A DNA stretch of 24,008 nt from a virus. The stretch lies in the IMG/VR virus record IMGVR_UViG_3300028840_002442, positions 1 to 24,008 of that record. One strand, written 5' to 3'. The number at the start of each line of letters is the position of its first letter. Positions within the stretch are counted from its first letter, which is position 1. The position numbers were made by a program, and so were the translations under genes. Below, piece after piece: positions 1,070 to 23,931 of this stretch. The notes beneath the pieces are model-generated. The model worked only from the letters and a program-made list of their open reading frames with translations, was not told the origin of the DNA and ran no database searches.

Positions 1070-1539
1070 CGAACCCTCCAGAAATCCGGTGCGCGAATCA
1101 GTAAGCCCGGCGCCACCTCCCACATCTCGGTTCGGTCCAGCAAAACGGCACCCGCGTATTGCCACGCGCCGAATGCAAACTCAGAACAAAACCAGTTTTC
1201 ATTGACTTCCGCGGAACGCCGCGAAATAAACCGCAGTACAGCCGGGTAATCGTATGGGCACCCGACCCGCTCTTCGGCCCATTCCCATGCCAGGTCATTG
1301 ACGCTTTCGAGGATCCCCGCCGGCAAAGGTAGTACCACGTGATATCGCTCGGCAGCGCCGTCTTGCTCTTCGTTAAACGGCCGCTTAATGACGCCTCGGA
1401 ACTCCCGAGCCTCAATCACTGTATCACCACGCCGCAACGCAACGTGACTGTACGGTGATCGTGTTTGCCACTTGATCAGGGTCCCGACCAAGCCGCTGCC
1501 ACGGTAAAACAGAGTTTCAACTCGTTCAAAGTCGCTCAT
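1066..1539 (-). CDS. YiiX/NlpC-P60-like permuted papain-fold hydrolase, putative endolysin or tail-associated peptidase
   Basis: The 157-residue protein has the circularly permuted NlpC/P60 order typical of YiiX/YaeF-like enzymes: His first (SPYSHVAL, H32), then an acidic residue (VIEA, E44) and the Cys late (ENWFCSEFA, C118). The motif around the Cys, with CSE followed by small and aromatic residues, is typical of this group. Members cleave amide bonds in peptidoglycan peptides or lipids. There is no signal peptide or membrane segment, so release would need a holin or delivery on the virion. It overlaps its upstream neighbour by four bases (ATGA, 1536-1539) and its downstream neighbour in the same way, so the three genes are translationally coupled. 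An endolysin or a tail-tip wall hydrolase are both possible; the sequence does not separate them. Confidence 0.65.
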   Translation of the reverse strand: MSDFERVETLFYRGSGLVGTLIKWQTRSPYSHVALRRGDTVIEAREFRGVIKRPFNEEQDGAAERYHVVLPLPAGILESVNDLAWEWAEERVGCPYDYPAVLRFISRRSAEVNENWFCSEFAFGAWQYAGAVLLDRTEMWEVAPGLLIRAPDFWRVR

Positions 1540-2339
1540 GAGGTCGCTTTTGTAACGTCGGCTGTCACCGTCGCGTCATCGCTCGCCAGCGTGACGACTT
1601 TACCTGTGGACCGTTTGACTTGCAGGTCATAGTGCCATTTCGCATAATCGACAACCACACCGCTTGGGTTGCGAGCCGTCCATGTTAGCTTGGCCATCTC
1701 GGCCGGCGTGCAAGTGACACGCACCGTGTTGGCCGTGGCGTCGGATACCCACGTACCGTTATCGCTGGTGCCAGCTGCCTCGCCGTTGATGTAAAGCAGC
1801 CCGCCTGTTTTTGTGATTTGAACCTTCGCCGCGCTGTCGGCATCGTCCGTCGACTCTTTGACAGTGAACCAACCCTCGGACACATCGTCCACGTCCATGC
1901 CGCTCCACGTAATATCGAGCGTATCGCCGCGGAGAATCGTAATCTCTTGGGCGCTGGCGGCTGCCTGCGAAGCGGCGGGTACTGACAGCGACACAACAAG
2001 GCTCGTCGAACCGAGTTGGCTGAGCGCGGCAGTAGTAAACGCGCTAACAGTCACATCGTCTGCGCTCGGGCAGTAGTCGGACACGAGCTCTGGGTCGGTG
2101 TCGTCGGTATGCTGCAGTACGCCACCGGCAATCTGGACACCGCTTTCGTCCTCGGCAACGAACATATACGTACCCGTTTCCAGGTTTGTGACGGTAACGT
2201 CATACCACGTAGCGTTGCTGGTATGTGCCGTCGCCGAGCCCGACGCGTCAGGCGTCCCGGTATTTGTCCCCAGTAGCCAAAATTTGGCTGTAAGGGTCTC
2301 GTCTGGGTCCGCCTGGAAACTTACTACGCATGCAGCCAT
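1536..2339 (-). CDS. Beta-sandwich tail appendage or baseplate-like structural protein
   Basis: This 267-residue protein is rich in Thr, Ser, Asp and Val with almost no charged helix, as in phage beta-structural proteins. The N-terminal part (about 1-80) reads as an immunoglobulin-like or fibre-shoulder domain (WYDVTVTNLETGTYMFVAED). A second domain starts near residue 130 with ILRGDTLDITWSG and ends with YDLQVKRSTGKVVTL followed by ATVTADVT. That ending resembles the BppU-type N-terminal domain, which attaches receptor-binding parts to the tail tip. The gene lies seven bases after the small gene that follows the tail fibre and overlaps the hydrolase gene by four bases, so it is most likely part of the adsorption apparatus. 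Exact position in the virion is inferred from order. Confidence 0.55.
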   Translation of the reverse strand: MAACVVSFQADPDETLTAKFWLLGTNTGTPDASGSATAHTSNATWYDVTVTNLETGTYMFVAEDESGVQIAGGVLQHTDDTDPELVSDYCPSADDVTVSAFTTAALSQLGSTSLVVSLSVPAASQAAASAQEITILRGDTLDITWSGMDVDDVSEGWFTVKESTDDADSAAKVQITKTGGLLYINGEAAGTSDNGTWVSDATANTVRVTCTPAEMAKLTWTARNPSGVVVDYAKWHYDLQVKRSTGKVVTLASDDATVTADVTKATS

Positions 2340-2346
2340 CGGTCAC

Positions 2347-2760
2347 TCACTTGTCGGCGTGTGCCACGTGTGGTTCAATCGTGATTAGGTTTTGCTCATC
2401 AATCTGAGACTTAGCTTTCGCTAACTCCTCCTGCTCTTTCTCGACACACCCGCGTTGCGCGTTGGTGTAGATCAGTTCGGCGGCCACCTCGTATGCCAAC
2501 TCTTGCCGCGTCGGCTGATAGGTTTCAATTATTTGGGTCTGCCCGGTTGGATTCCCCTGCGGATCCAGGACCGGGTTCTCAACCCGTGAGTACGTCGGAT
2601 GCGCCCGATGTGCCGGTTTGCGACACGTCAGCGGCACGGGCGTCGTTGGGTCGTCTTCCGACGGCTTCCAGCCGCCTCGATACGACAGACCATCGACCAC
2701 CTGCTGTCGCAAGGCCGCGGGGTACCGCACAATCAATTCACGCACTACGGAAAGGTCCAT
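2347..2760 (-). CDS. Small phage protein downstream of tail fibre, function unknown
   Basis: I do not recognise this 137-residue protein. It starts with a helical segment (MDLSVVRELIVRYPAALRQQ), has a proline-rich middle (about 35-75) and ends with a charged helix likely to form a coiled coil (about 90-125, VEKEQEELAKAKSQ). It has no signal peptide or membrane segment. It lies 11 bases after the tail-fibre stop and seven bases before the appendage gene, inside the adsorption block. Small proteins at this place in other phages can be fibre assembly chaperones or minor structural parts, but nothing in the sequence proves either. The start ATG at 2760 is the only good one. Confidence 0.5.
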   Translation of the reverse strand: MDLSVVRELIVRYPAALRQQVVDGLSYRGGWKPSEDDPTTPVPLTCRKPAHRAHPTYSRVENPVLDPQGNPTGQTQIIETYQPTRQELAYEVAAELIYTNAQRGCVEKEQEELAKAKSQIDEQNLITIEPHVAHADK

Positions 2761-2771
2761 GATGACTCCAG

Positions 2772-4517
2772 TTAAGTTAACGCAGTAAAGCCAAACGTTT
2801 CTAAAACGGCCAACGCGGACGCAATCGCCGCGCGGGCTTCCGTGTCTTGTGTTGCGCCGCCAGTAGGATCAGCGATATGTGATTGCTGAGAAGCAGGAGT
2901 TGCTCCGAGGAATGCAATTTTATCTGTTGAGTTTGTTCCGATTTGAGTGCCGGCTGAATTTCCAACGAGAACATCACTACCATCAGCTAATTGAACCGAT
3001 CCACTTTGATTGATTGCGAACCCGTTAACCGTGCCAGCGTTGTTCCAGAATTTAAGATTACCGCTCGCGTCTGTCCCGAGCCAGGTATTTTGACTACTAC
3101 CGTCACCTGCAATTCCAAGTTGAAAGTTTGACGACCCTTTGATGAACACTCGGGTGTCCGCAGTGCCGTCTCCAACCGATAACTTATGAGCCGGACTTGA
3201 CGTTCCAACTCCGAAATTATCCATCGTGTACCCGTCACCATCTGCCCACAGCTGTGCACGTGTTCCAGTCCCATTGCCCTTCAGTACAAAATATCCCCGA
3301 CTACTGGCAATGCCTAATTGTGCCCGCATAGCATTTCCAGACACCAGCTTGGCTAAATATTGTCCGTCTTCGATCATCACGTAGTAAGATGCCGAATCCC
3401 CAGCATACACGTCGCCCCATTTGTTGCTGGACGTGCCAAGCGTTCCACTTCCCGTCAAATTCCCAGACGCATCAACTGTGAAAATCGGAGTAGAACCATC
3501 CGTTGAACACTCCAAAAAGTTTCCGTCTTCACTCGTGACATTTGTCACGTCGCGATGAAGATGAAGAAGTGCACCGGCTTCGGAATACGCAGACGCACCG
3601 TCAACATCACGTTTCACTAGCAACGTATCGAAATCTCGATTTGCACCGAGGGGTTGCTGTGTTGTAGTACCGATAACCACATCGCCTAATGCCCCCGAGC
3701 CATCACGATACACCTGGTTAATTTGCAAAAACGGCAATCGATTGTATCCAGCCACTTCGAAAATCGTTGCACCATCGCCCACCCATGACCACGCTTGCCA
3801 CTTTGTGCCGTATTTCGTGAGTGTTAAACCGTCAATATCTATAGAACCACCTGTCCCCAACGTCACCTTTTTCGACGCATCAACTGCCAAAACATCACCG
3901 CCAGTGTTCCCATAGCTGTTGATGTTGATGTAGTCTGCGGTTTGGACGATGGCTCCTTCGAGGATCTGGGTGATGTCAGCTGCATTATTCGATACAACTT
4001 TTACTGATTGTCCACTGGCCGGTGCTGTTACAATAAGACCCGCACCAGCACCCGCTTGCATTGTGATTACATCGGGCGTAAAAAAGACACCAGTGTCGCT
4101 GTCACCATGATGACGTAGGCTGTCGGAGACGTAATGCACACCTAGTGTCTCAGAATTCCCATTCACGGAAAACAGTGAGCCGTTCCACGTCGGCCCGCCG
4201 CCAGAGAATCCGCCCGCACCGTCGTTGATCTGGATGTCATTCGCCGACCCGCCGGGCGAAGTCGACGCGCCCAGTTCGACCCACGCGGCCGCGCCTACAC
4301 TCGCATCCGTGCACCGGTACCACGTTAGACCGACCGTGTCGTACCAACCGCTGCCCACCTCGTAACCCTCGGACGAATCGTCCAGCACGCCGGGGGCACC
4401 GGTACCGGTGAGGTTGTCCTTGCGCATGTGGAGTTTCTCGTCGGCATCGACGATCAGCGTACCCGGGCCGGAAACCCCGAGGACCTTTTTATCTTCACGT
4501 ATGGTCGATGCCCACAT
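2772..4517 (-). CDS. Tail fibre / receptor-binding protein
   Basis: The start is set at the ATG at 4517 (MWASTIREDKK), just after the stop of the upstream gene; the longer frame to 4595 would overlap that gene. The product has about 581 residues and is dominated by Gly, Ser, Thr, Asp and Asn with many short beta repeats, like trimeric fibre shafts. Near the N-terminus it carries a segment common in fibre proteins (TVGLTWYRCTDASVGAAAWV). The C-terminus (KIAFLGATPASQQS, then TEARAAIASALAVLETFG) matches the usual tail-fibre ending of many siphoviruses. The stretch from about 2.79 to 4.2 kb is visibly more AT-rich than its neighbours, which fits exchange of host-range genes. Its role would be binding the host surface. 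Confidence 0.75.
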   Translation of the reverse strand: MWASTIREDKKVLGVSGPGTLIVDADEKLHMRKDNLTGTGAPGVLDDSSEGYEVGSGWYDTVGLTWYRCTDASVGAAAWVELGASTSPGGSANDIQINDGAGGFSGGGPTWNGSLFSVNGNSETLGVHYVSDSLRHHGDSDTGVFFTPDVITMQAGAGAGLIVTAPASGQSVKVVSNNAADITQILEGAIVQTADYININSYGNTGGDVLAVDASKKVTLGTGGSIDIDGLTLTKYGTKWQAWSWVGDGATIFEVAGYNRLPFLQINQVYRDGSGALGDVVIGTTTQQPLGANRDFDTLLVKRDVDGASAYSEAGALLHLHRDVTNVTSEDGNFLECSTDGSTPIFTVDASGNLTGSGTLGTSSNKWGDVYAGDSASYYVMIEDGQYLAKLVSGNAMRAQLGIASSRGYFVLKGNGTGTRAQLWADGDGYTMDNFGVGTSSPAHKLSVGDGTADTRVFIKGSSNFQLGIAGDGSSQNTWLGTDASGNLKFWNNAGTVNGFAINQSGSVQLADGSDVLVGNSAGTQIGTNSTDKIAFLGATPASQQSHIADPTGGATQDTEARAAIASALAVLETFGFTALT

Positions 4518-4522
4518 GTGGC

Positions 4523-4777
4523 TTACCCCATATGCTCTTGCAGCTTTACCACGTCCTTTGCCAGGCCGTTCAATACCCGGCCACGCTCTCGGCAAGTGTC
4601 TTTAATCTCACCGATATCCTGCGACAGGCCGTTTGACACCTTTGCCTCGAGAACCGATAACTTGGTATTGACTTGCATCACCCACGGCAGCACCCGACTA
4701 ACCAGGAAGCAGATCACGCCTTGCGTGCATGCCACCAAAATCTCGAGCCAGTTTTCGCCCAGGAAGTCCATGGTCAC
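4523..4777 (-). CDS. Small single-span membrane protein with coiled coil, possible holin
   Basis: The 84-residue product has one hydrophobic segment (about residues 9-34, from NWLEILVACTQG to LPWVM), followed by a charged helical tail (about 38-80) with heptad-like Leu and Val spacing. The start ATG overlaps the stop of the tape-measure gene as ATGA (4774-4777). One span plus a charged tail fits a class III-type holin, a spanin-like inner-membrane part or a tail-tip membrane protein. A holin between tape measure and fibre is unusual; most lysis genes here lie further downstream. The membrane segment is clear, the role is not. Confidence 0.6.
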   Translation of the reverse strand: MTMDFLGENWLEILVACTQGVICFLVSRVLPWVMQVNTKLSVLEAKVSNGLSQDIGEIKDTCRERGRVLNGLAKDVVKLQEHMG

Positions 4778-7700
4778 CTCGGTTGTGAATGGCCGCCCAT
4801 CGTTGTTGCGGCCACAGCGGTCGCGCCGGCGTTGGGGCTGAAAATCGTCTCATCGAGCATACGCTCGTTTGCCTCCGCGCCGCGGCTAGTGTTCTGTGCG
4901 ATCTGCTCGAGCACCTCGGTCAATTGGTTCAAATCCGGTAGCTGGATCCCTGACGCCTGCTCGCCGAGCTGCTGCTGTAAATCCCGCTCGACACTCGCCA
5001 GGCTTTCAACATCGCCCAGCGGTAGCCGCCCACCGTGGTGCACCCGGCGAGCTCGTTTAGCCGCGTCGATCGCACGTTGCCGGGCCGCCGCTTGCGAAGA
5101 CGGCACCGAGCCGCCAAGGTTGCCCCGCAGCTTGTCGGCAATCTTCCGATTTGCTTCCGACTGTGGGCCGGAATCACCCGATGGCCCGAGGTCGATCGTG
5201 CGAGAAGCCTCCTGTGAGGCCTCTTGCGCAACGCTATTGGCGATCGACTCACGGAACGTGTCAGGCTTCTTGCGTAAACCACGCACACGCTCCTTGGCCG
5301 CAGCCGCTTGATCAAAGGCCTTGCGGGCCATCCCTAGCTGATACTGCCGGATGGCTTCCGGGTCGAAGGTTTCTTCGACCGGCGAGATCGCGTCGATCCC
5401 TTCCATTGGGCGCGATGGCAGTTGGCCTGGCGGCTTCGGTGTCGGTGCCTGGATCCCTTCGTCCGGCGCCGAAAGCGAGATCTCGGAGGCAGCCGCCGCT
5501 TCGTCGGCCATCTGCTGGAAAGACGCCTCGCGTGCCGCGTCAGCTTGTTCAGTCGCTTCGCGGAAACGGGCCGAGGCGGCAGCTGCACGTTCTTGGGCTG
5601 TGCCTTCGCCCGGGGGCGTCGGCTTCTCGTCCACGATTTGCTGGATTGCGTCGGCCGACGGTAAAACACTCGCGGGATCGAACGAAGGTAGCACGTCGGT
5701 AAAACCGCCGGCCGGCGCCGCCGGCACCTCTTCGCCTGCCACCTTGGCGAAGGTCCGGTCGTACATCGCGTCTTTGGCCGCGGTGGCATTGGCCGCTTCG
5801 GCGAAAGACTCGGCCGCGCGCTCCTGCGGGCTCTTCTCGATCGGCTTTGGCGGTTCGGGCGGTGTCGCCGGCTTTTCAGTCACCGCGGGAGGCGGCGGCG
5901 CCACCGGCTGCGCTGCGCTGGTCGTTTCAATCGGGCCATCGATCACCACCTTACGGGCGTCGATCTGTACGGTATCGGCCGAGGTCACCCCGATCGTCGT
6001 TGACTCATCTACTTGCTTGACGACCGGCTCGGGGACCTCGAGCGACTTTTTCGCCGGCTCTTCCTCGTCGCTGCCGAAAAACGACCCGATAACCTGACTG
6101 GCCAGGCCTGCTATACCGGCCGTTGCCACACCGCCCATCGCGGTGCCGCCGAGGTTGATACCTTCTTTCGCTTCGGCGGGTTCTACCGCCGTCGTCGTAC
6201 TCGCCGCCGCTCGCTTTTGTTTGATCGATTCCAAAGTTTGGAGTGTATCGTCGATCAATTCCAGCTGAGCCTGTTGGTCTTTGGATAGGCCCCGCTGTCG
6301 TTCAGCCTCGTCAAACTGGCCGCTAGTCAACGCCTCCATCTGCGACTCGACCGATCGCTCACTCCAATACCTCGCCTTCCAAGGGTTAGGGAAACGCGGG
6401 AACACCATATTGTGCCGGCGATACAGGAGCTCGCGTTGTGCCTCTTCGGCTGGATCCCCGCCAGCGTCCACACCGCGGAAAAACCGTCCCATAGGTCCGG
6501 CGAGCGGAGTAGACATGTCTGCAACATCCGGGAGGCCTTGAGCAGTGCGTTTGAGCACCCGTTCAAGCTCGTCGCGAACCGTGGCTTTGTACCCGCCTTC
6601 ACTGGCCAGGTCGTACGCTTCAACGCCCGCCCCGAGCTGCTGCGCTTCTTCGGCGACCTGCAACGGCTGCGAGGCCTCCAGTAGGTTCTTTAAGATCTGC
6701 TCGTAGTTTTTCGGGTCCGGTTTAATGTCGCCAAGCGCCCGCTGAAACCGCTCTGCCGCTTCAGACCCTTCATCCGTCAGGAACGATCGGATCACCGGCT
6801 TGACAGCACCTCGGAACGAGGCGCTTTGCAGGCCGTCGCCGCCCTGGAAGAACAACCGCTGTAATTCGGGACTTTGTTGCACGGCGGCCACACGTTCAGC
6901 AAACGTGCGCAGCCCGGTGCCCTTGCGGACCACCGTTTGCCCCGGCTCTTCGGTCAGCTGCGACTCGATTTCTGCAAGCTCTTTTGTGGCCCGAGCCACT
7001 CGCTTTTGCTCACGTTCGACCTGGTCTTTGTAATCCTTTTGCGTTTGGGCAATGTCGTACTCGATCGCCTCGGTGTCGATCAGCTTCGCGGGGGCCAGCC
7101 CGCGGCTCTTTCGCCATCCCTGATCTTGCGATCGCTGCAGATTGGTTTCTTTCGCTTCAGCCAGGCGTTTCTGTTGCCGACGCAGTCGCTCATCCTTCTC
7201 GGCTTCCGCATCGACCAAGTCTTCTTTCGAGTCCTGAATAGACTCACGTAGTGACGCTTGCCGCTCAATTAATTCCTTTCGTTTAGCCTCTGTCACACCG
7301 CCTTCGATGCCGACGCCCAGAATGTCTTTTTCCGGCATCATGCGTTCGAGCTGCACAGCCATGTTTGCGACAGCCGTTTTGGTAAGCGAGCCGCTAGGGT
7401 CCTTGATCGCACCACCGATTGCCGCAAACGCGGCGCCCGCTTCGATGACCGCACGGACCCGATCCTCTTCGGTGTCTACCGCTGTCGCGCCCGCGATACT
7501 AGCGGCGGCCTCTTTGAAAGCACTTGGCTCGACAATACGGGCTTTTTGCTGCACACCGATCACCAGGCCGATCGTTTCTGCGATCTCCTTGGGTGTTTCC
7601 GCCTTGATCATGCTAGCGATATCGGCTACCGCCGATGCAAACTCTGGTAGCTCGCCAGGTCGCGTTTTGAATAGCGGCGCCGTCTGCTCGAGAATCGTAC

Positions 7701-8640
7701 GTGTCAACGCCTGGTCGCCACCTGTGGCCGACAGCATGCCCGAGGTCGCCTGGAAGAGGCTCCGGGCATCCTTTAAGCCTAATCGCTCTTGCAGTCCCTG
7801 GATCGCATCTAAAAACGTGGTTGCCTCCTCGGTCGGTACTGGTCCGAGGTTCAGAATAGTGGCTGCCTGTGCCTCAGCGACCGTCATTTGGGCGTCACGC
7901 TGCTGATTTGCAACCTCATTCGCGCCTTCCATCGCCTGGCGGAACAGGTTGATCGCACCGGTGACCGTGGTGTAGGCGGTAAAGAGCCCCATAACTTTTC
8001 CGGCCAGGCCAGTAAGGATGCCGCCGTGTTTTTCATGGGCGCTACCCAGGTCTTCGGTTGCTTCTTCGGTGTCGTGCTGTGTCCGCCGGATGTCTTCCAA
8101 GCGAGCGACATACTCACCCTGCGACAGCTGACCACGATCGAGTTGGCGGTTCAAATCTCGCAGCTCGATTTCGAGTCGTCCCACGCCCGAAGCAGCGCCG
8201 AGCGACGCCTGTTTAGCGCGATTGAGTTCGCGGTCGTACTGGGCCTGATTGATCGCGCCCGTTTTCAACTGCCGATCGAGCCGCGTCAAATTTATCTCGT
8301 ACGCCTGCATTGGATTCGCAGTGGCCGCAAACTTCTGTGCCAGGCGATCCATGGCTTGGGTATGCACTAATGCCAGCTGGGTATTCTGCTTGGCAGCCGC
8401 GTCGAGCTTCGCGAGCTCTTCACGGAAGCGTGCCACCGGCGTTTGAACCGACTTAACCACGCGATCAGCGTACCGCTGCATGTCGCGAATCGCTCTGGTC
8501 GTCTTCTGCCCAGCCCGTGCGGACTCTTCACCGACGGCGCGCAGTTTTTCCTTTAGTTGCGTCTGACTCTTCTGGAGTTTCTCCAGCTCAGCCACAACTT
8601 TATTGACGCCGACAAGTTCAGCAGAGAAGCGTACGCTCAT
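4774..8640 (-). CDS. Tail tape measure protein
   Basis: At 1288 residues this is the longest gene in the window, placed directly after the tail chaperone, as expected for the tape measure that sets tail length and lies inside the tube. The N-terminal 200 residues and the region about 455-560 are strongly helical and charged (coiled coil). A glycine-rich hydrophobic stretch (about 828-855, GGTAMGGVATAGIAG) could contact the membrane during DNA ejection. A long Pro/Ala/Glu-rich part follows (about 890-1110), then another helical end. By the usual rule of about 0.15 nm per residue, the tail would be near 190 nm. The start ATG overlaps the stop of the -1 frame of the upstream chaperone gene as ATGA. 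No lysozyme or peptidase domain is evident. Confidence 0.85.
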   Translation of the reverse strand: MSVRFSAELVGVNKVVAELEKLQKSQTQLKEKLRAVGEESARAGQKTTRAIRDMQRYADRVVKSVQTPVARFREELAKLDAAAKQNTQLALVHTQAMDRLAQKFAATANPMQAYEINLTRLDRQLKTGAINQAQYDRELNRAKQASLGAASGVGRLEIELRDLNRQLDRGQLSQGEYVARLEDIRRTQHDTEEATEDLGSAHEKHGGILTGLAGKVMGLFTAYTTVTGAINLFRQAMEGANEVANQQRDAQMTVAEAQAATILNLGPVPTEEATTFLDAIQGLQERLGLKDARSLFQATSGMLSATGGDQALTRTILEQTAPLFKTRPGELPEFASAVADIASMIKAETPKEIAETIGLVIGVQQKARIVEPSAFKEAAASIAGATAVDTEEDRVRAVIEAGAAFAAIGGAIKDPSGSLTKTAVANMAVQLERMMPEKDILGVGIEGGVTEAKRKELIERQASLRESIQDSKEDLVDAEAEKDERLRRQQKRLAEAKETNLQRSQDQGWRKSRGLAPAKLIDTEAIEYDIAQTQKDYKDQVEREQKRVARATKELAEIESQLTEEPGQTVVRKGTGLRTFAERVAAVQQSPELQRLFFQGGDGLQSASFRGAVKPVIRSFLTDEGSEAAERFQRALGDIKPDPKNYEQILKNLLEASQPLQVAEEAQQLGAGVEAYDLASEGGYKATVRDELERVLKRTAQGLPDVADMSTPLAGPMGRFFRGVDAGGDPAEEAQRELLYRRHNMVFPRFPNPWKARYWSERSVESQMEALTSGQFDEAERQRGLSKDQQAQLELIDDTLQTLESIKQKRAAASTTTAVEPAEAKEGINLGGTAMGGVATAGIAGLASQVIGSFFGSDEEEPAKKSLEVPEPVVKQVDESTTIGVTSADTVQIDARKVVIDGPIETTSAAQPVAPPPPAVTEKPATPPEPPKPIEKSPQERAAESFAEAANATAAKDAMYDRTFAKVAGEEVPAAPAGGFTDVLPSFDPASVLPSADAIQQIVDEKPTPPGEGTAQERAAAASARFREATEQADAAREASFQQMADEAAAASEISLSAPDEGIQAPTPKPPGQLPSRPMEGIDAISPVEETFDPEAIRQYQLGMARKAFDQAAAAKERVRGLRKKPDTFRESIANSVAQEASQEASRTIDLGPSGDSGPQSEANRKIADKLRGNLGGSVPSSQAAARQRAIDAAKRARRVHHGGRLPLGDVESLASVERDLQQQLGEQASGIQLPDLNQLTEVLEQIAQNTSRGAEANERMLDETIFSPNAGATAVAATTMGGHSQPR

Positions 8641-18396: not shown

Positions 18397-20337
18397 TCAT
18401 CGTTCCCCTATCACACCGTCCGGCCGAGGTTTCTGCCGCTTCTGCGGCCTCGGCCATTGGTTTTCGTCCCACCCGACATTCTCGCCGAAGCTATCAACGA
18501 CCATCTCCGCCATTGCCCTTGAATACGTCTCGCCATCCCAAAAATCATGGCCGAGCGTGCTATCCCGCTCACGCCACTCCGCCTTATATCGCCCGTCTTT
18601 GCCGCGGATAAACACTAGAGGCTCATTCACCACTTGCTTCAGATAGAACTTGCCAACCTCGATTGCGTCACGAGTGACATACCACGCGCCCGGCTTGTCG
18701 GGGCTCGAGCGAAACCGGCCGGCTAAGTCGGCCCGAAATACCTCTGGGTTGATGTTCCATAGCTCGAGCCCACCTTCATAGACTTTACCTTTATCCCGCT
18801 TTGCGTGTTGTACCTCGGTCATCTTGTACTTCTGGTCCGGCTTCACTTGGGCCTCACCCCTGACGATCCGCACACGCTCTTGATCGTGTTCCCTCAGTGA
18901 CCGCCGCCAATTATGCACATCCATAGTACGATGCTGCCCATCAATGCCGAGCAGTGCAACCTTCAATTGCCTCCGGCCTCGAGGGTTGACGTCGCCACCC
19001 ACAATCGGAAACGACCGGCGCAACACGTACTCCCAGATCTGCTGTAGATCGGATTTAACCAAATCGCCGTCATCACCTTCGGATCGCTCGAATACGAACC
19101 AATCGACCAGCGCCGATGTGCAATTGCCCCACCAGCCACGCACGGTCACGTAGACTTCGCGCTCTTGCACGTCTCCACCGGCGGTAAGAAACCAAGTATG
19201 AAGCGGTACCGTGCCACGTTCGTGCGTGTATGCCAGCCTGGTACCGAGCTCACGCCATGTCGGCATCTTGCCGCGCTGGCGGTGACAAAGCCCGAGCACG
19301 TTCTGAAAGAAATCGGGCAACTTGCCGTCACCTCGAGCCGTCAGATACTCGGCCGCGATGTCGCCAAAACTGTAGTGGCTATGGATACGCCACAAGTGGA
19401 ACCCAACGCTTCGGCCGCTGGCGTGCTTCTTACTGGCCACCCACCTGCCGTTCCGAACAAAGGTGGCCTTTTCGTCGTTCGTAATCCGGCAACCCGACTT
19501 GCACACATAGTGGGCTGTTTGTCGCGCGGCATCCGGTGGTAACCACTGTCCATGCTTGTCCTTCAGGCCGGCGAATCCGCACCGGCCTGCGAGCGGACCT
19601 TCAGCGTGAGTGAAGAACCTTAATTCCTGTTCGACACCGCAATGCGGACACGTTGCCCACCAGCGGCGCTGATCCGATTCGGCCTCCATCTGCTCGATAC
19701 GTGAAACCTCGGGCAGCGGGGTACTCTCATCCAGGATTAGCGAGCGGTAGAACGCTTTCACACGCTGGTTCGACGCTTCGATCGGATCCTCGTTGCCCCG
19801 CCCCTCGAATACGTCAACCTCCGAGCGGAAGACGTATTTACACCGCCGGCTGCGCAAACGCGAGCTCGATCTGGGCCACGCAAGATAGACCCGCATTTCA
19901 CCAAGATCACACCACCGGGTGTTCCATTGGCGTTTTACTGGAATAGGGATACCTGACGCAGCCGCCAGCGAGTATAACCGATCGCGAAACTCGACTGCTT
20001 CGTCGCGTCCCGGCAAAACGCACATGGCCGGTGCCGGCGAATTCTCAGCGAGGTAGAGCAGTACCGCACAAAGCAGGAGCGTCTTACCACTCTGCGTGCA
20101 GGCCTTGATCCGCACAAACCGTACGTCGGGATCCGCACAAACCTCTGCCACCTCTGCAAACCATGGCCGAGCCGACAGCTCATAAGGTCCGCGCGCAGAT
20201 TCATATTCCTGAGTTAACCGCACGCGTCGAGGCAACCACTCTACGGGTGTTTCACGCCGACGTGGCCGCCAACCCTGCCCCAGGTGTCGTCGCAATCGAT
20301 TTTTAGCGTTAGTCCTCGTCGCCGTTCCCTTCTTCAT
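18397..20337 (-). CDS. Terminase large subunit, GpA family
   Basis: The start is taken at the ATG at 20337 (MKKGTATRTNAKN), which gives 646 residues, near lambda gpA (641); the frame to 20451 would lie inside the upstream gene. The protein has a Walker A-type ATPase motif ACTQSGKT (79-86), a Walker B region SEVDVF (172-177, normally DEVD in this family), a zinc-like CPHC (230-233) plus later Cys residues (RCGF, CKSGC), and the C-terminal nuclease half with GGDVQ and LGIDGQHR. GpA-type terminases cut concatemeric DNA and drive it into the prohead through the portal. It overlaps the Nu1-like small subunit gene by 29 bases. Its basic N-terminus would bind the small subunit. Confidence 0.9.
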   Translation of the reverse strand: MKKGTATRTNAKNRLRRHLGQGWRPRRRETPVEWLPRRVRLTQEYESARGPYELSARPWFAEVAEVCADPDVRFVRIKACTQSGKTLLLCAVLLYLAENSPAPAMCVLPGRDEAVEFRDRLYSLAAASGIPIPVKRQWNTRWCDLGEMRVYLAWPRSSSRLRSRRCKYVFRSEVDVFEGRGNEDPIEASNQRVKAFYRSLILDESTPLPEVSRIEQMEAESDQRRWWATCPHCGVEQELRFFTHAEGPLAGRCGFAGLKDKHGQWLPPDAARQTAHYVCKSGCRITNDEKATFVRNGRWVASKKHASGRSVGFHLWRIHSHYSFGDIAAEYLTARGDGKLPDFFQNVLGLCHRQRGKMPTWRELGTRLAYTHERGTVPLHTWFLTAGGDVQEREVYVTVRGWWGNCTSALVDWFVFERSEGDDGDLVKSDLQQIWEYVLRRSFPIVGGDVNPRGRRQLKVALLGIDGQHRTMDVHNWRRSLREHDQERVRIVRGEAQVKPDQKYKMTEVQHAKRDKGKVYEGGLELWNINPEVFRADLAGRFRSSPDKPGAWYVTRDAIEVGKFYLKQVVNEPLVFIRGKDGRYKAEWRERDSTLGHDFWDGETYSRAMAEMVVDSFGENVGWDENQWPRPQKRQKPRPDGVIGER

Positions 20338-21013
20338 CTTCTTCGATCGTGTCCGCGATTTCCTCGTACGCGCTGTCGAGCAGCGTTTGCACTTCGTTGT
20401 AGACCTGACGTCGAGCGTCGGCTGACATCGACACAGGAAGCAGCTGCACAACGCGTTCCGGTAGTGGTTCTAAAATCGCTTTGGCCGCAGCAATGTGTTG
20501 CAGGCAGATTCTCGCCACCTCGTCTACATCAGCCATCTTTCCCGCCACAACAAGCGCCTCTTGCTTTTTAGCCTCGAGGTCCAACCGGGCAATCTCGCGC
20601 TTGAGTTCGCGAATTTCATCATCACCCTCGATTCCACCAGTGGCCGGCTGGCGAGTAGCCAGCCACGCTTGTATCTCGCTGACAGGTAAAAAACCATCCT
20701 GCTTGCCGGGGGAAGCCGGTCTTCCTGGCCAGCCTGGCTCGGTCGCCCACCGCTGTATAATTCGCACCGGGTCTTTGCCTCGCATCCCCAACGCGCGCGC
20801 GAGCTCGGCATACGTCCGGCATACAAACCCTGTTGGCGTCGTGCCTATCTGCTCGGCGTAGCCGTGTTCCACCAGCCAGGTATTCACCGCTTCTAAGTTG
20901 AACCGCTTTTTTCTGGACTTGCCTTCCCACGGTAGTCCTTTTTTGACCAGCGACTGCAACTGCGCGGCATTAATCCCTAGGTGTGACCGTAACTTAGTAA
21001 ATGACAAGATCAT
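20309..21013 (-). CDS. Terminase small subunit, Nu1-like with two winged-helix modules
   Basis: The start is set at the ATG at 21013 (MILSFTKLRSHLG), with GGAG nine bases upstream; a TTG at 21028 is possible but less likely. The 234-residue protein has two MerR/Nu1-like DNA-binding modules: residues 9-48 (LGINAAQLQSLVKKGLP...RFNLEAVNTWL) and 67-119 (TYAELARALGMRG...FLPVSEIQAWL). A coiled coil follows (about 130-155), then the Nu1-type tail (KKQEALVVAGKMADVDEV, LEPLPERVVQLLP) and an acidic end. Nu1-like proteins recognise the packaging site and recruit GpA, which is the next gene. Two DNA-binding modules in one chain is more than lambda Nu1 has. Confidence 0.75.
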   Translation of the reverse strand: MILSFTKLRSHLGINAAQLQSLVKKGLPWEGKSRKKRFNLEAVNTWLVEHGYAEQIGTTPTGFVCRTYAELARALGMRGKDPVRIIQRWATEPGWPGRPASPGKQDGFLPVSEIQAWLATRQPATGGIEGDDEIRELKREIARLDLEAKKQEALVVAGKMADVDEVARICLQHIAAAKAILEPLPERVVQLLPVSMSADARRQVYNEVQTLLDSAYEEIADTIEEDEEGNGDED

Positions 21014-21014
21014 C

Positions 21015-21497
21015 TCACATCGCTCCAAACCTGTAGACGATAGGTCCGTCGCCCGTTTTTCGGACCCGTTGTCCAGTCTCCACCGCCTGCCGCGCTTTGG
21101 GTGACAAACCGAGTTCCGCCGCGAAAGCCGCCAGCGATCGCGACAGCTGATGAAAATCGATCATCCGCGGGTTGCGCTTGTTCTCGAGGCCGGCGGCGGT
21201 GTGATGTTTCACGATTTGCCCTTCGTGTCGAAGCGCGTGCAGGCACTCCCACCACAGCCCGTAAGTCACCGCGTATCGCTGGATCGTTTCCCAGCGGTGT
21301 TCGGTTGGTATGCCTTCCGCCTCGCAGGCCTCTATCACCAGGTCGAAAAACTGTTCGGTCGTTTTCAGAGTCGCTTCGCGCGTACACTGCTGGTCATCCG
21401 CCTCGGACGGAAACATGCCTCGTAGCGCGCCTCTCACCTTCGACAACTGATCAGATAACATTCGCTCAGCGCGCTCGAGCTCATCCCGCTTGCCCAT
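21015..21497 (-). CDS. P27-family-like small terminase subunit or DNA-binding protein
   Basis: The 160-residue product has a charged helical start, a central WETIQRYAVTYGLWWECLHALRH helix region and a C-terminal LSRSLAAFAAELGLSPKARQAV motif. The last part is typical of P27-type small terminases (ELGLTP-R). It starts at an ATG with AGGAGG eight bases upstream. A small CCCCT/AGGGG hairpin (about 21512-21528) lies before that site. It is the first gene of the leftward late operon and ends three bases before the Nu1-like ATG. Two different small-terminase types side by side is unusual; one may have another job, such as transcription control. Confidence 0.65.
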   Translation of the reverse strand: MGKRDELERAERMLSDQLSKVRGALRGMFPSEADDQQCTREATLKTTEQFFDLVIEACEAEGIPTEHRWETIQRYAVTYGLWWECLHALRHEGQIVKHHTAAGLENKRNPRMIDFHQLSRSLAAFAAELGLSPKARQAVETGQRVRKTGDGPIVYRFGAM

Positions 21498-21552: not shown

Positions 21553-21581
21553 TTGACGACCGTAGGCCGTTCGGGTAGAAT
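21553..21581 (+). promoter_or_regulatory. sigma70-like promoter for the rightward two-gene operon
   Basis: TTGACG (21553-21558) and TAGAAT (21576-21581) are separated by exactly 17 bases. The predicted start near 21588 lies just before two hairpins and about 85 bases before the first ATG. It points to the GP88-like gene. Confidence 0.65.
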
Positions 21582-21590
21582 GTAGTAGAT

Positions 21591-21646
21591 TCGGTGGCCA
21601 CGGGGGGCCACCGAGGCCGGTCGGTGGCCACGGGGGCACGACCGGC
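21591..21646 (+). repeat. Tandem hairpins and 30-base direct repeat in the rightward leader
   Basis: TCGGTGGCCACGGGGG occurs twice, at 21591 and 21621, exactly 30 bases apart. Hairpin one: CGGTGGCC (21592-21599) with GGCCACCG (21606-21613). Hairpin two: GCCGGTCG (21616-21623) with CGACCGGC (21639-21646). Both begin at or just after the predicted transcription start, so they could be operators or an RNA switch. Being next to the small-terminase gene, they could instead be part of a packaging site. Confidence 0.65.
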
Positions 21647-21671
21647 TGTCACCCCTGTGAAAGGTCATGTC

Positions 21672-22274
21672 ATGTATCGCTTCCGAGCCGTCACCCTCCA
21701 CGGATGTACCATCAGCCATGGCAACCAGAAGGTCGGACACACAGCCAACGTTAGCCTGTTGCCAGGCGCTAGCTGCCCCGACGATATCCCCTGCAAGCGC
21801 GATTGTTACGAGGCAAAGGCCTTGCGAATGTATCCTACCGTCCGTCGCGCTCGTCAACGAAACTGGAAGTTGTGGCGATCGGATCCCGACAGCTATTTTC
21901 GCGGGATCCGCGAGTACCTGACGCGATACACTCCCAAATGGTTTCGTTGGCACGTTGGCGGCGACATCCCGTCGCAAGACTACTATACCGAGATGAAGAA
22001 AATTGCCCGTGAATTCCCCGGTACTAACTTCCTGTGCTTCACAAAAAACCACGACCTGAGTTTTGCTGGTCGCCCGCAAAACCTGGCTATTATCCTGTCG
22101 ATGTGGCCTGGTTGGGGCTCCACACGTAAAGACCTGCCCCGCGCGTGGATGCAAGACGGCACAGAAACCCGGATCCCTGACAGTGCTATACCTTGCACTG
22201 GTTCCTGCGAAAACTGCGGCATGTGCTGGAGTTTGCCAGTTGTTAAAAAGGACGTTGTTTTTAACCTGCACTAA
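21672..22274 (+). CDS. GP88-family-like cysteine-rich phage protein
   Basis: The start is the ATG at 21672, with GAAAGG seven bases upstream; the GTG at 21594 would lie within the leader hairpins. The 200-residue protein carries a Cys cluster C35, C41, C45 (SCPDDIPCKRDCYEAK), a RWHVGGDI motif (92-99) and a final cluster C175, C179, C182, C185 (PCTGSCENCGMCW). This layout matches from memory the phage GP88 family, whose function is not established; the Cys spacing could hold zinc or an Fe-S cluster. LCFTKNH (121-127) is another landmark. The gene is followed after 26 bases by the DUF523-like gene on the same transcript. It runs opposite to the structural genes. Neighbouring sulfur-chemistry genes suggest a metal or sulfur role, but this is not proved. 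Confidence 0.65.
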   Translation: MYRFRAVTLHGCTISHGNQKVGHTANVSLLPGASCPDDIPCKRDCYEAKALRMYPTVRRARQRNWKLWRSDPDSYFRGIREYLTRYTPKWFRWHVGGDIPSQDYYTEMKKIAREFPGTNFLCFTKNHDLSFAGRPQNLAIILSMWPGWGSTRKDLPRAWMQDGTETRIPDSAIPCTGSCENCGMCWSLPVVKKDVVFNLH

Positions 22275-22300
22275 CCTAACTCATCCGGTGGTATTAAGCC

Positions 22301-22690
22301 ATGAAAGACAACATTCTCATCAGCCGCTGTATCCTCGGTATCCCGTGTCGGTATCACGGGCAAAAGTACCGTATGGGAAAACGGATCGGGCGCCCTTCGC
22401 TGGTCGCCCGCCTTCAGAAACGATATAACCTGATTGACATCTGCCCCGAGGTTGACGCTGGCCTGACCACGCCGCGGCCACCCACGCGCATCGTGCGCGG
22501 CCGGTGGATTTGCGAAGGGAAAGACGTCACCGCCATTTTTCGACGCGGAGCCCAGTTGGCGGTGCAAGCCGCGATCGAACATGAAGCCGAAAAAGCGTAC
22601 CTTTTGAAACTGTCGCCCGCCTGTGACAGCAACTTCGGCTGTGCTGCCTGCGCCCTTAAGAAGCACGGGGTGACAGTCATTTCGGTTTGA
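22301..22690 (+). CDS. DUF523 / TudS-like protein, putative thiouracil-type desulfidase
   Basis: The 129-residue product keeps the main DUF523 blocks: ILISRCILGIPCRYHG (C10), ICPEVDAGLTTPRPPT (C48), GKDVTAIFRRGAQ and LLKLSPACDS (C108), ending HGVTVIS. The three cysteines C10, C48 and C108 are those that bind a [4Fe-4S] cluster in TudS, a DUF523 protein shown to remove sulfur from thiouracil. It is shorter than usual (about 150): the loop after the third Cys, normally with YDGTFSG, is missing and replaced by NFGCAAC. It forms an operon with the GP88-like gene and ends 12 bases before the stop of the converging ParB/PAPS-reductase gene. A strong terminator follows. Family is firm; substrate in this phage is unknown. 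Confidence 0.8.
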   Translation: MKDNILISRCILGIPCRYHGQKYRMGKRIGRPSLVARLQKRYNLIDICPEVDAGLTTPRPPTRIVRGRWICEGKDVTAIFRRGAQLAVQAAIEHEAEKAYLLKLSPACDSNFGCAACALKKHGVTVISV

Positions 22691-22702
22691 TGACATCTGA
22701 CC

Positions 22703-23713
22703 TCACTCAGCCGGTGACCCTTCGTCACCGGCTTTCTTCTTTTCCATCTCCTCACCCTTGTCAGCCAGCTCGGCAAACGACACACCTATATTCCAGGTGC
22801 CAACGCCAAGCTGCTCTTCCATTTTTGTCAACTCAACCCAAACATCGGGGAACTCACGCCGGATCGCAGTATAGGCAATCGGGCGCTGGCCCGGGCAAAT
22901 TCGACACGCCGTTCGGCACAAACCACGAGAGTAGCCTGGCCAAAGCGGCGCACCTGATTCCGCCAGTATCCGCTCGCCTGAACCCTTGTCCGCGAAGTAG
23001 AGCGGTTGAAAGAACCGGACGTCCTTAATCCGCTCTACCAGCAGCCAGCGATCGGTGCGAGGTGTGCTGCGAGCCGCCTTCTCTTGCAGCCGGCCGCCAC
23101 GAAGCACAACCATAGTGCCCGGCTCAAACGACAGGAAATACGGATCCATGCCCGCGTGTAATACCTCGTGGCAATAGGGATGTGCAAAATGCGGCCACTC
23201 CCCTTTGTCCAGGATGTGGTCGATCATATTCTCTTCTGATCGACAGATCACCAGCGGCGCCCCTATCCACGCCGAAAACTCACGCAGAAACATCTCCATA
23301 CCAACGAAGTCGGCGCCCATGTCGCAGAACGCCAGCCGTAGATCCGCTGTAGGGAAGTAACGTTTTGCCCACACGGCCGCAGCTGAGGAGTCCTTGCCGC
23401 CTGAAAACTGAATCACCAGGATCTTGCCCTCGAGCTCGGCCTGCTCATCTTCAGATGGCCTAAGATCGTCTAGAGTTGCCCCGCGGATCACTTTAGGCTT
23501 GTCCTTCTGCGGCTTCTCGTCATCTTGTCCGACTCCCCACCACTCCCCGAGGTCATTAAGCACCTCCTGTACTGCCTCGTTAGTGGTTTCGACATCCTGA
23601 AGCAATGTGGCCAGCCGCTCTGTATTCGCCTCGGCCAGCTCGGCCAGTGGATCCAATGTGGCCAAAAGCACCTTCGCCTCCTCTTCAGTCACATCTAGCA
23701 CTAACACAGGCAC
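22703..23713 (-). CDS. PAPS-reductase/DndC-like ATP pyrophosphatase with the end of a ParB-like domain
   Basis: The frame from a GTG at 23713 gives 336 residues. Residues 1-42 (PVLVLDVTEEEAKVLLATLD, LATLLQDV) are the second half of a phage ParB-like domain whose first half is in the next frame upstream. From about 97 it is a PAPS-reductase-type domain: PP-loop FSGGKDSS (103-110), then AFCDMGADFVGMEMF. Cysteines C181, C266, C270 and C273 (GLCRTACRICPGQRP) could hold an Fe-S cluster as in DndC-like enzymes. Enzymes of this superfamily activate a target with ATP, often for sulfur transfer. ParB and PAPS-reductase partners occur in IbrA/IbrB and in phage fusions. AGGGGAG lies six bases before the GTG, so restart after the break is possible. 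A one-base loss near 23745 is more likely. Confidence 0.75.
   Translation of the reverse strand: MPVLVLDVTEEEAKVLLATLDPLAELAEANTERLATLLQDVETTNEAVQEVLNDLGEWWGVGQDDEKPQKDKPKVIRGATLDDLRPSEDEQAELEGKILVIQFSGGKDSSAAAVWAKRYFPTADLRLAFCDMGADFVGMEMFLREFSAWIGAPLVICRSEENMIDHILDKGEWPHFAHPYCHEVLHAGMDPYFLSFEPGTMVVLRGGRLQEKAARSTPRTDRWLLVERIKDVRFFQPLYFADKGSGERILAESGAPLWPGYSRGLCRTACRICPGQRPIAYTAIRREFPDVWVELTKMEEQLGVGTWNIGVSFAELADKGEEMEKKKAGDEGSPAE
22709..22743 (+). terminator. Intrinsic terminator of the rightward operon, inside the end of the converging gene
   Basis: AGCCGGTGA (22709-22717) pairs perfectly with TCACCGGCT (22725-22733) around a 7-base loop, followed by TTCTTCTTTT. It lies within the last codons (AGDEGSPAE) of the leftward gene, so that sequence serves as both code and terminator. 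Confidence 0.8.
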
Positions 23714-23724
23714 CTTCTGCTCCC

Positions 23725-23931
23725 CTAGCTCTTCGGTACGAAGGTGCCATCGATCAGCTCAAGCTGACCGTCTTCACGCTCTCGCGCGATCACGGCATCT
23801 GCAATCCCCACCTGCTCCAAAACGCCCCGCAGCGCCGCCCGCTGCTCGTCTGGGTGCGTTCGCCAATTCCATGTATTGGGTACCAGCTTGTTAGCCGGCA
23901 CCCGTCGAAGACTCTTGATTCGATCTCTCAC
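23725..23931 (-). CDS. ParB-like domain, N-terminal part, split by frameshift
   Basis: The 68-residue product starts at a GTG at 23931 with AGGAG eight bases upstream. It reads LRRVPANKLVPNTWNWRTHP, then DEQRAALRGVLEQVGIADA and LELIDG, the first half of a phage ParB/sulfiredoxin-like domain. After IDG it runs into FVPKS and stops. In the -1 frame the same DNA gives HLRTEELGEQKVPVLVLD, which is how this family normally continues, and leads without a stop into the PAPS-reductase-like gene. Restoring one C near 23745-23748 (GGCCACC instead of GGCACC) would join them into a 409-residue fusion. No slippery heptamer is seen there. Inactivation, sequencing or assembly error, or an unusual recoding event are the options. 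Confidence 0.75.
   Translation of the reverse strand: MRDRIKSLRRVPANKLVPNTWNWRTHPDEQRAALRGVLEQVGIADAVIAREREDGQLELIDGTFVPKS

Follow-up and report, generated by a model that had tools for sequence, protein, structure and literature searches.

The window analysed here, the whole 24,008-base stretch of a single IMG/VR virus record (IMGVR_UViG_3300028840_002442), carries three genes of sulfur- or cluster-type families packed into 2.3 kb near the terminase, raising the question of whether these genes work together and on what substrate. An earlier note on this DNA had named the three families from the letters alone, and profile searches recovered all of them (PF17338, PF04463 and PF01507/PF02195-like).

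Gene layout and a frame break in the window

The GP88 family gene occupies positions 21672-22274 on the plus strand (PF17338, E = 2.7e-25, 90 bits against a cut-off of 24.4) and is followed on the same strand by a DUF523/TudS-like gene encoding 129 aa (22301-22690; PF04463, 77.6 bits against a gathering cut-off of 34.7). Convergent with the latter, and separated from it by 12 nt, is the minus-strand ParB-PAPS gene. Its 3' part (22703-23746) encodes a PAPS-reductase-like PP-loop domain containing SGGKDS (phrog_424, E = 6e-21; PF01507, 16.7 bits, below cut-off), and its 5' part (23725-23931) encodes a ParB N-terminal-like domain of 68 aa (phrog_723, E = 6e-4; phrog_498, E = 5e-4). The GP88/DUF523/PAPS group adjoins terminase genes at 21015-21497 and 20309-21028, and profile matches identified a gpA-type terminase large subunit at 18397-20451 on the minus strand. 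Portal and head-protease genes come after the terminase genes.

The ParB-PAPS fusion described in the earlier note held in part: both domains are encoded, but in the window they lie in different frames. The ParB frame stops early at a TAG after ...LIDGTFVPKS, and the PAPS frame, offset from it, reads HLRTEELGEQKVPV... and, as HLRTEELGEQKVPVLVLDV, matches what relatives carry past LIDG. Comparison with relatives placed a one-base deletion inside the IDGHxR motif, at 23740-23752 on the minus strand, where the window reads GGC|ACC and relatives read GGCCAC or GGGCAC (GGCCACC in L016). DGHxR lies in one frame in five relatives (L001, L016, L033, L012 and L023), as illustrated by the single-frame IDGHLR of L016 (ATCGACGGCCACCTG, compared with ATCGATGGCACCTTC in the window). 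Judged from these alignments, the window's ParB-PAPS gene is split by one missing base in IDGHxR. The missing base is either a real mutation, with a gene that may be inactive here, or an error that the contig may carry. Programmed frameshifting was considered and rejected, because the relatives use a single frame and the window's motif is merely one base short; neither a slippery site nor a recurrence of the break pointing to such a mechanism was found in the window and its relatives.

Linkage of ParB-PAPS with DUF523 in unrelated viruses

Scans with single window proteins as queries returned few loci, and alignments were needed. A PAPS alignment (A3) searched against IMG/VR with PAPS patterns only gave 22 loci, 20 of them distinct, and DUF523, called by the DUF523 HMM and counted as nearby within 2 kb, was nearby in 16 of the distinct loci, or in 14 of 18 after removal of two loci previously found through DUF523. 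A second IMG/VR scan built on the window's own subfamily (A6) added three new loci, all three with DUF523. Combining both PAPS-seeded scans, DUF523 lay within 2 kb in 17 of 21 distinct viral loci that were new to DUF523 searches. The exceptions comprised one genome encoding DUF523 elsewhere (L036), one locus in which an N-terminal remnant of DUF523 adjoins a truncated PAPS gene (L041), one PAPS protein unfused to ParB (L042) and one 12-kb fragment with no DUF523 within 2 kb (L037). Two close matches were also found among 294 Planctomycetota genomes, both with DUF523 (whole in L086, cut by the contig edge in L085).

Controls gave a different picture. The same genome searches also returned 24 other loci of the PAPS family, none of which had DUF523 within flanks of roughly 1.5 kb; seven GP88 and ParB-only viral loci were likewise without it, and P0002 matched only 15 of 50,697 phage records. 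Plasmids searched with the PAPS domain yielded nothing but remote PAPS reductases, with identities of at most 32%. Thus the linkage proposed for this region was confirmed for ParB-PAPS and DUF523, whose joint recurrence in unrelated viruses greatly exceeds chance expectation, but did not extend to GP88. In total, ParB-PAPS and DUF523 are neighbours in two dozen or more unrelated viruses and prophages, often beside DNA-packaging genes.

The arrangement of the pair varied. Among 22 pairs, 16 were convergent, four co-directional and two divergent, and L086 adds another co-directional case. That a convergent layout would permit opposed control becomes less plausible with this finding, since the same pair occurs in three orientations. 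The gap was nonetheless small (at most 270 bp in 19 of the 22 pairs), and the 3' ends overlap in many convergent pairs. This retention of proximity through repeated rearrangement suggests that ParB-PAPS and DUF523 form a functional pair, probably a single machine that has not been described before. No two of the 20 pairs used for distance comparisons fall together at a 70% PAPS identity threshold; the lowest PAPS identity is 22.5%, and the distance matrices of the two proteins correlate (Mantel r = 0.27, p = 0.0005).

A terminase was close by in most loci and belonged to several Pfam types (GpA, Terminase_6, Terminase_3 and TerL_ATPase/nuclease), and in four loci (L024, L026, L033 and L035) a clamp-loader-like AAA ATPase gene was immediately upstream of DUF523. 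The Methanoculleus viruses Blf4 and L4768 carry ParB-PAPS (gp05, annotated 'DNA modification methylase'), then DUF523 (gp06), then the terminase.

Conserved features of the paired proteins

The PAPS domain of the window contains the motifs SGGKDS, HPYCHE, RGGR and TACRICPGQ. Its SGGKDS had been noted correctly, together with four cysteines, but there are six, three of which (C192, C281 and C284 in P0003 numbering) are invariant across the 21 relatives. In all 21 aligned relatives one cysteine follows the conserved WP motif and ACxxCP is present, and the PP-loop is found in every relative of this alignment that covers the region. No conserved cysteine occurs downstream of CxxC in the 21 sequences. 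Sulfonucleotide reductases carry their catalytic cysteine there, in a C-terminal motif of the ECGLH type, making it probable that the PAPS protein is not a sulfate-assimilation enzyme. The APS reductase cluster motif consists of a tandem CC plus CxxC; the PAPS domain has a single cysteine plus CxxC at the spacing of this [4Fe-4S] motif, with the second tandem cysteine absent.

Profile and structure comparisons placed the domain among several PP-loop families. The best PADLOC profile was SspD (E = 1.2e-12 for the window and 2.6e-14 for L008), a profile with no curated cut-off. An AF2 model of the relative L033 (pLDDT 82.8) had APS reductase 2goy as its nearest match (190 residues, Z = 14.7); FAD synthase and GMP synthase scored equally well, and TtuA and NcsA were only slightly lower (Z about 13). 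The likeness to SspD/DndC thus consists of the SGGKDS PP-loop, the PAPS fold and the PADLOC result, whereas the window enzyme differs in being viral, fused to ParB and paired with DUF523; a scan of ten other window ORFs detected no Dnd/Ssp partner genes, on a contig that may be incomplete. The [4Fe-4S] tRNA thiolases TtuA and NcsA share the PP-loop, three cysteines and a similar fold, but the order and spacing of the cysteines differ: CxxC comes first in the thiolases, while in the PAPS domain a single cysteine is followed 89 residues on by CxxC. In addition, ParB takes the place of the RNA-binding part of the thiolases. PAPS-reductase homologues in phages have been noted as unexplained (PMC11437467).

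The ParB stretch of the window, which alone scored 12.8 bits against ParB_N, below the Pfam cut-off, shares 53% identity with the L001 ParB protein, and profile A7 matched ParB/Noc chains (E = 1.5e-9). The ParB part also matches the module that phage DNA methyltransferases carry at their N terminus (phrog_498, E values down to 3e-36; PADLOC MTase_II), and ParBc has been described as frequently fused to methyltransferases and as a neighbour of hypermodification genes (PMC12783734). The phage fusions of phrog_498 have this N-terminal module in common with ParB-PAPS, but carry a methyltransferase where ParB-PAPS has its PAPS-type PP-loop domain. IbrA/IbrB, a prophage pair of PAPS-reductase-like and ParB-like proteins, likewise encodes both domain types together, but as separate genes, whereas all intact ParB-PAPS relatives use one reading frame. 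No DUF523 was present in the records of Bacteroides phage BS-TP4 and L042, whose PAPS proteins are unfused.

As had been claimed, the DUF523 protein of the window keeps the three cluster cysteines of TudS, its C10, C48 and C108 corresponding to TudS Cys10, Cys43 and Cys104, and its E50 and S105 correspond to the catalytic Glu45 and Ser101. The third catalytic residue of TudS, Ser103 (PMC10611767), is replaced by alanine in the window (A107), by methionine in Blf4 and L017, and by one or other of these two residues in several of the partners; the partner gene of L012 has lost the third cluster cysteine (SPSG). Position 19, the Asp of RYDG in TudS, is Asp in 27 of 28 cellular TudS sequences, but 23 of the 24 viral-type sequences have His, Arg or Asn there (His19 in the window); one of the 24, L016, has no PAPS gene on its contig. 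Because of the changes at position 19 and Ser103, the substrate site of the viral TudS-like proteins has probably changed. Cys16, invariant in the viral sequences, was rejected as a phage-only feature since several cellular TudS proteins carry it; the replacement of Asp, not Cys16, discriminates viral from cellular sequences.

Compared with TudS (PDB 6Z92-6Z96) and RudS, the viral proteins share the family, the three cluster cysteines, the glutamate and one serine (PMC10611767), but are shorter, often lack the second catalytic serine, have a near-obligate ParB-PAPS partner and are without DUF1722. Phages are known to encode RudS, a TudS-DUF1722 fusion of a family that removes s4U from tRNA (PMC11417400). 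We file the window protein as a homologous member of PF04463 and as a putative thiouracil desulfidase at most.

Candidate functions of the pair

The reading we favour, tentatively and with slightly less than even confidence, is that ParB-PAPS and DUF523 belong together as the two near-obligate components of a viral system for adding sulfur to DNA, most likely to that of the virus itself at about the time of packaging. The ParB module, as fused by phages to DNA methyltransferases, would hold the enzyme on DNA, and the PP-loop domain, in which the three invariant cysteines probably bind an iron-sulfur cluster, would use ATP to activate an oxygen, either a base carbonyl or one in the phosphate backbone, as an adenylate. 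The TudS-like partner would then supply or accept the sulfur, by analogy with relatives in which a [4Fe-4S] cluster bound by three cysteines carries a sulfide on its free iron. The earlier suggestion of sulfur on nucleic acid is consistent with SspD as the best PADLOC profile and with the ParB module common to phage DNA methyltransferases, while for the chemistry we infer joint action on DNA, a thio-base or phosphorothioate as the product and the direction of sulfur flow. A more specific proposal is doubtful, namely that viral DNA thiolation is widespread and that the TudS-like [4Fe-4S] protein serves synthesis, donating sulfur to a PP-loop enzyme targeted by ParB, with a sulfur-containing base or backbone as the result.

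Several observations weigh against the DNA-sulfur model. The chemistry of PP-loop enzymes is not confined to sulfur (TtuA scores no better than GMP synthase and FAD synthase), and the ten other window ORFs included no Dnd/Ssp partner. The altered Ser103 position in the window, Blf4 and L017 and the incomplete cluster motif of L012 count against it as well, as does the broken frame of the window's own ParB-PAPS gene. Finally, TudS and RudS are known only as removers of sulfur (PMC10611767, PMC11417400).

This last point is also the starting point of the main rival, a writer paired with an eraser or proofreader, in which ParB-PAPS would thiolate DNA and the TudS-like protein would desulfurate misplaced or free thio-nucleotides, thereby barring thio-nucleotides from replication or limiting the mark. 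Retention of the catalytic residues Glu50 and Ser105 agrees with such a role, and near-obligate pairing would be expected if one gene gave a toxic product and the other served as its safety valve. We nevertheless regard this arrangement as unlikely, since the loss of the Ser103 equivalent in several proteins and the nearly universal replacement of the RYDG Asp argue for a changed substrate or role, and since L012 has kept its partner gene despite the lost cluster cysteine.

Two further explanations appear improbable, to a like degree. The pair could act in counter-defence, disabling a sulfur-based defence or an s4U sensor by stripping or scrambling the sulfur mark of the host, be it Dnd/Ssp phosphorothioate or tRNA s4U. 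The nearness of the PAPS domain to SspD, the position of the genes in a poorly annotated slot adjoining the terminase and the described action of phage RudS on tRNA s4U (PMC11417400) fit this possibility, but simple removal needs no ATP-using PP-loop domain, and the presence of Dnd/Ssp in the hosts would have to be assumed. Alternatively, the pair could carry out a DNA hypermodification that does not involve sulfur, with the PP-loop domain adenylating the base and amidating it or ligating a group onto it, and DUF523 serving as an Fe-S helper without sulfur transfer. Such a function would suit the comparable scores of the PP-loop relatives QueC, GMP synthase and TilS and the membership of the ParB module in phage DNA modification enzymes, but SspD as best defence profile, the desulfidase family of DUF523 and the three invariant PP-loop cysteines all point to sulfur.

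Returning to the DNA-sulfur model, the occurrence of a near-obligate pair of sulfur-chemistry families near packaging genes in unrelated viruses of bacteria and archaea provides a strong lead towards a new DNA mark, and TudS proteins gain a possible second role as sulfur-handling partners. We are not aware of a phage-encoded thio-base in DNA, and in the open-access literature searched we found no paper naming both DUF523 and phosphoadenosine phosphosulfate reductase. The hypothesis is directly testable because the cultured lytic archaeal virus Methanoculleus Blf4 encodes the pair; the passages searched in the Blf4 paper contained no DNA-modification or restriction data on this virus.

The reading with which the locus was first described, a single sulfur or cluster island of all three genes including GP88, is highly improbable: the genes lie within 2.3 kb in the window, but GP88 occurred in one of 23 records with the pair, the window itself, and GP88 loci elsewhere were without DUF523 (six loci) and without PAPS. 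GP88 was accordingly rejected as a third member of the set and is judged a bystander. Its AF2 model (pLDDT 68) gave only weak structural matches, bearing on the question of a TIM-barrel or radical SAM fold; its profile had no significant match to an SPL-like protein, and its cysteine spacing in the window is CX5CX3C, compared with the CX3CX2C-type motif of radical SAM enzymes. The description of the GP88-like protein as having seven cysteines in two clusters was borne out, in that these seven, out of nine in the window protein, are invariant in six relatives.

Variants of the ParB-PAPS and DUF523 pair

Among the loci found in searches for relatives of the pair, one viral locus from the PAPS-seeded scan (L041) carries a shortened version, in which a 31-aa DUF523 N-terminus abuts a truncated PAPS gene (positions 5847-6492), an arrangement that looks as if a deletion had brought the two genes together. 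Other loci carry additional genes. In L024, L026, L033 and L035, a gene encoding a DnaX/clamp-loader-like AAA ATPase, perhaps an accessory component, immediately precedes DUF523 and has the same orientation. L028 and L031, from a closely related virus group, have the PAPS and DUF523 genes separated by two extra genes, with products of 259 and 129 aa.

CRISPR and ParB neighbours

Directly after the pair in L012 (IMGVR_UViG_3300009494_000018, positions 5345-7936), a viral contig that also encodes a terminase, are type IV CRISPR genes, with PADLOC matches to Csf2 (2.8e-43) and Csf1 (1.2e-8), and alongside them a second PAPS/CysH-like gene. On a Pirellulales contig (L016, positions 1187-3829), the flanks of a DUF523 gene with approximately 60% identity to that of the window contain a pair of near-identical ParB genes, neither of which has a PAPS domain, and a gene for an SPL-like radical SAM protein.

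Large proteins and terminase genes

Two large window proteins, of 607 aa (2772-4595) and 1288 aa (4774-8640), had no PHROG match at E 1e-5. The window also encodes two adjacent terminase-small-subunit-like genes (20309-21497), which belong to different families, Terminase_4/phrog_83 and phrog_57. In L013, a virus carrying DUF523, the terminase large subunit gene (positions 4125-7496) contains a LAGLIDADG insertion that is probably an intein.
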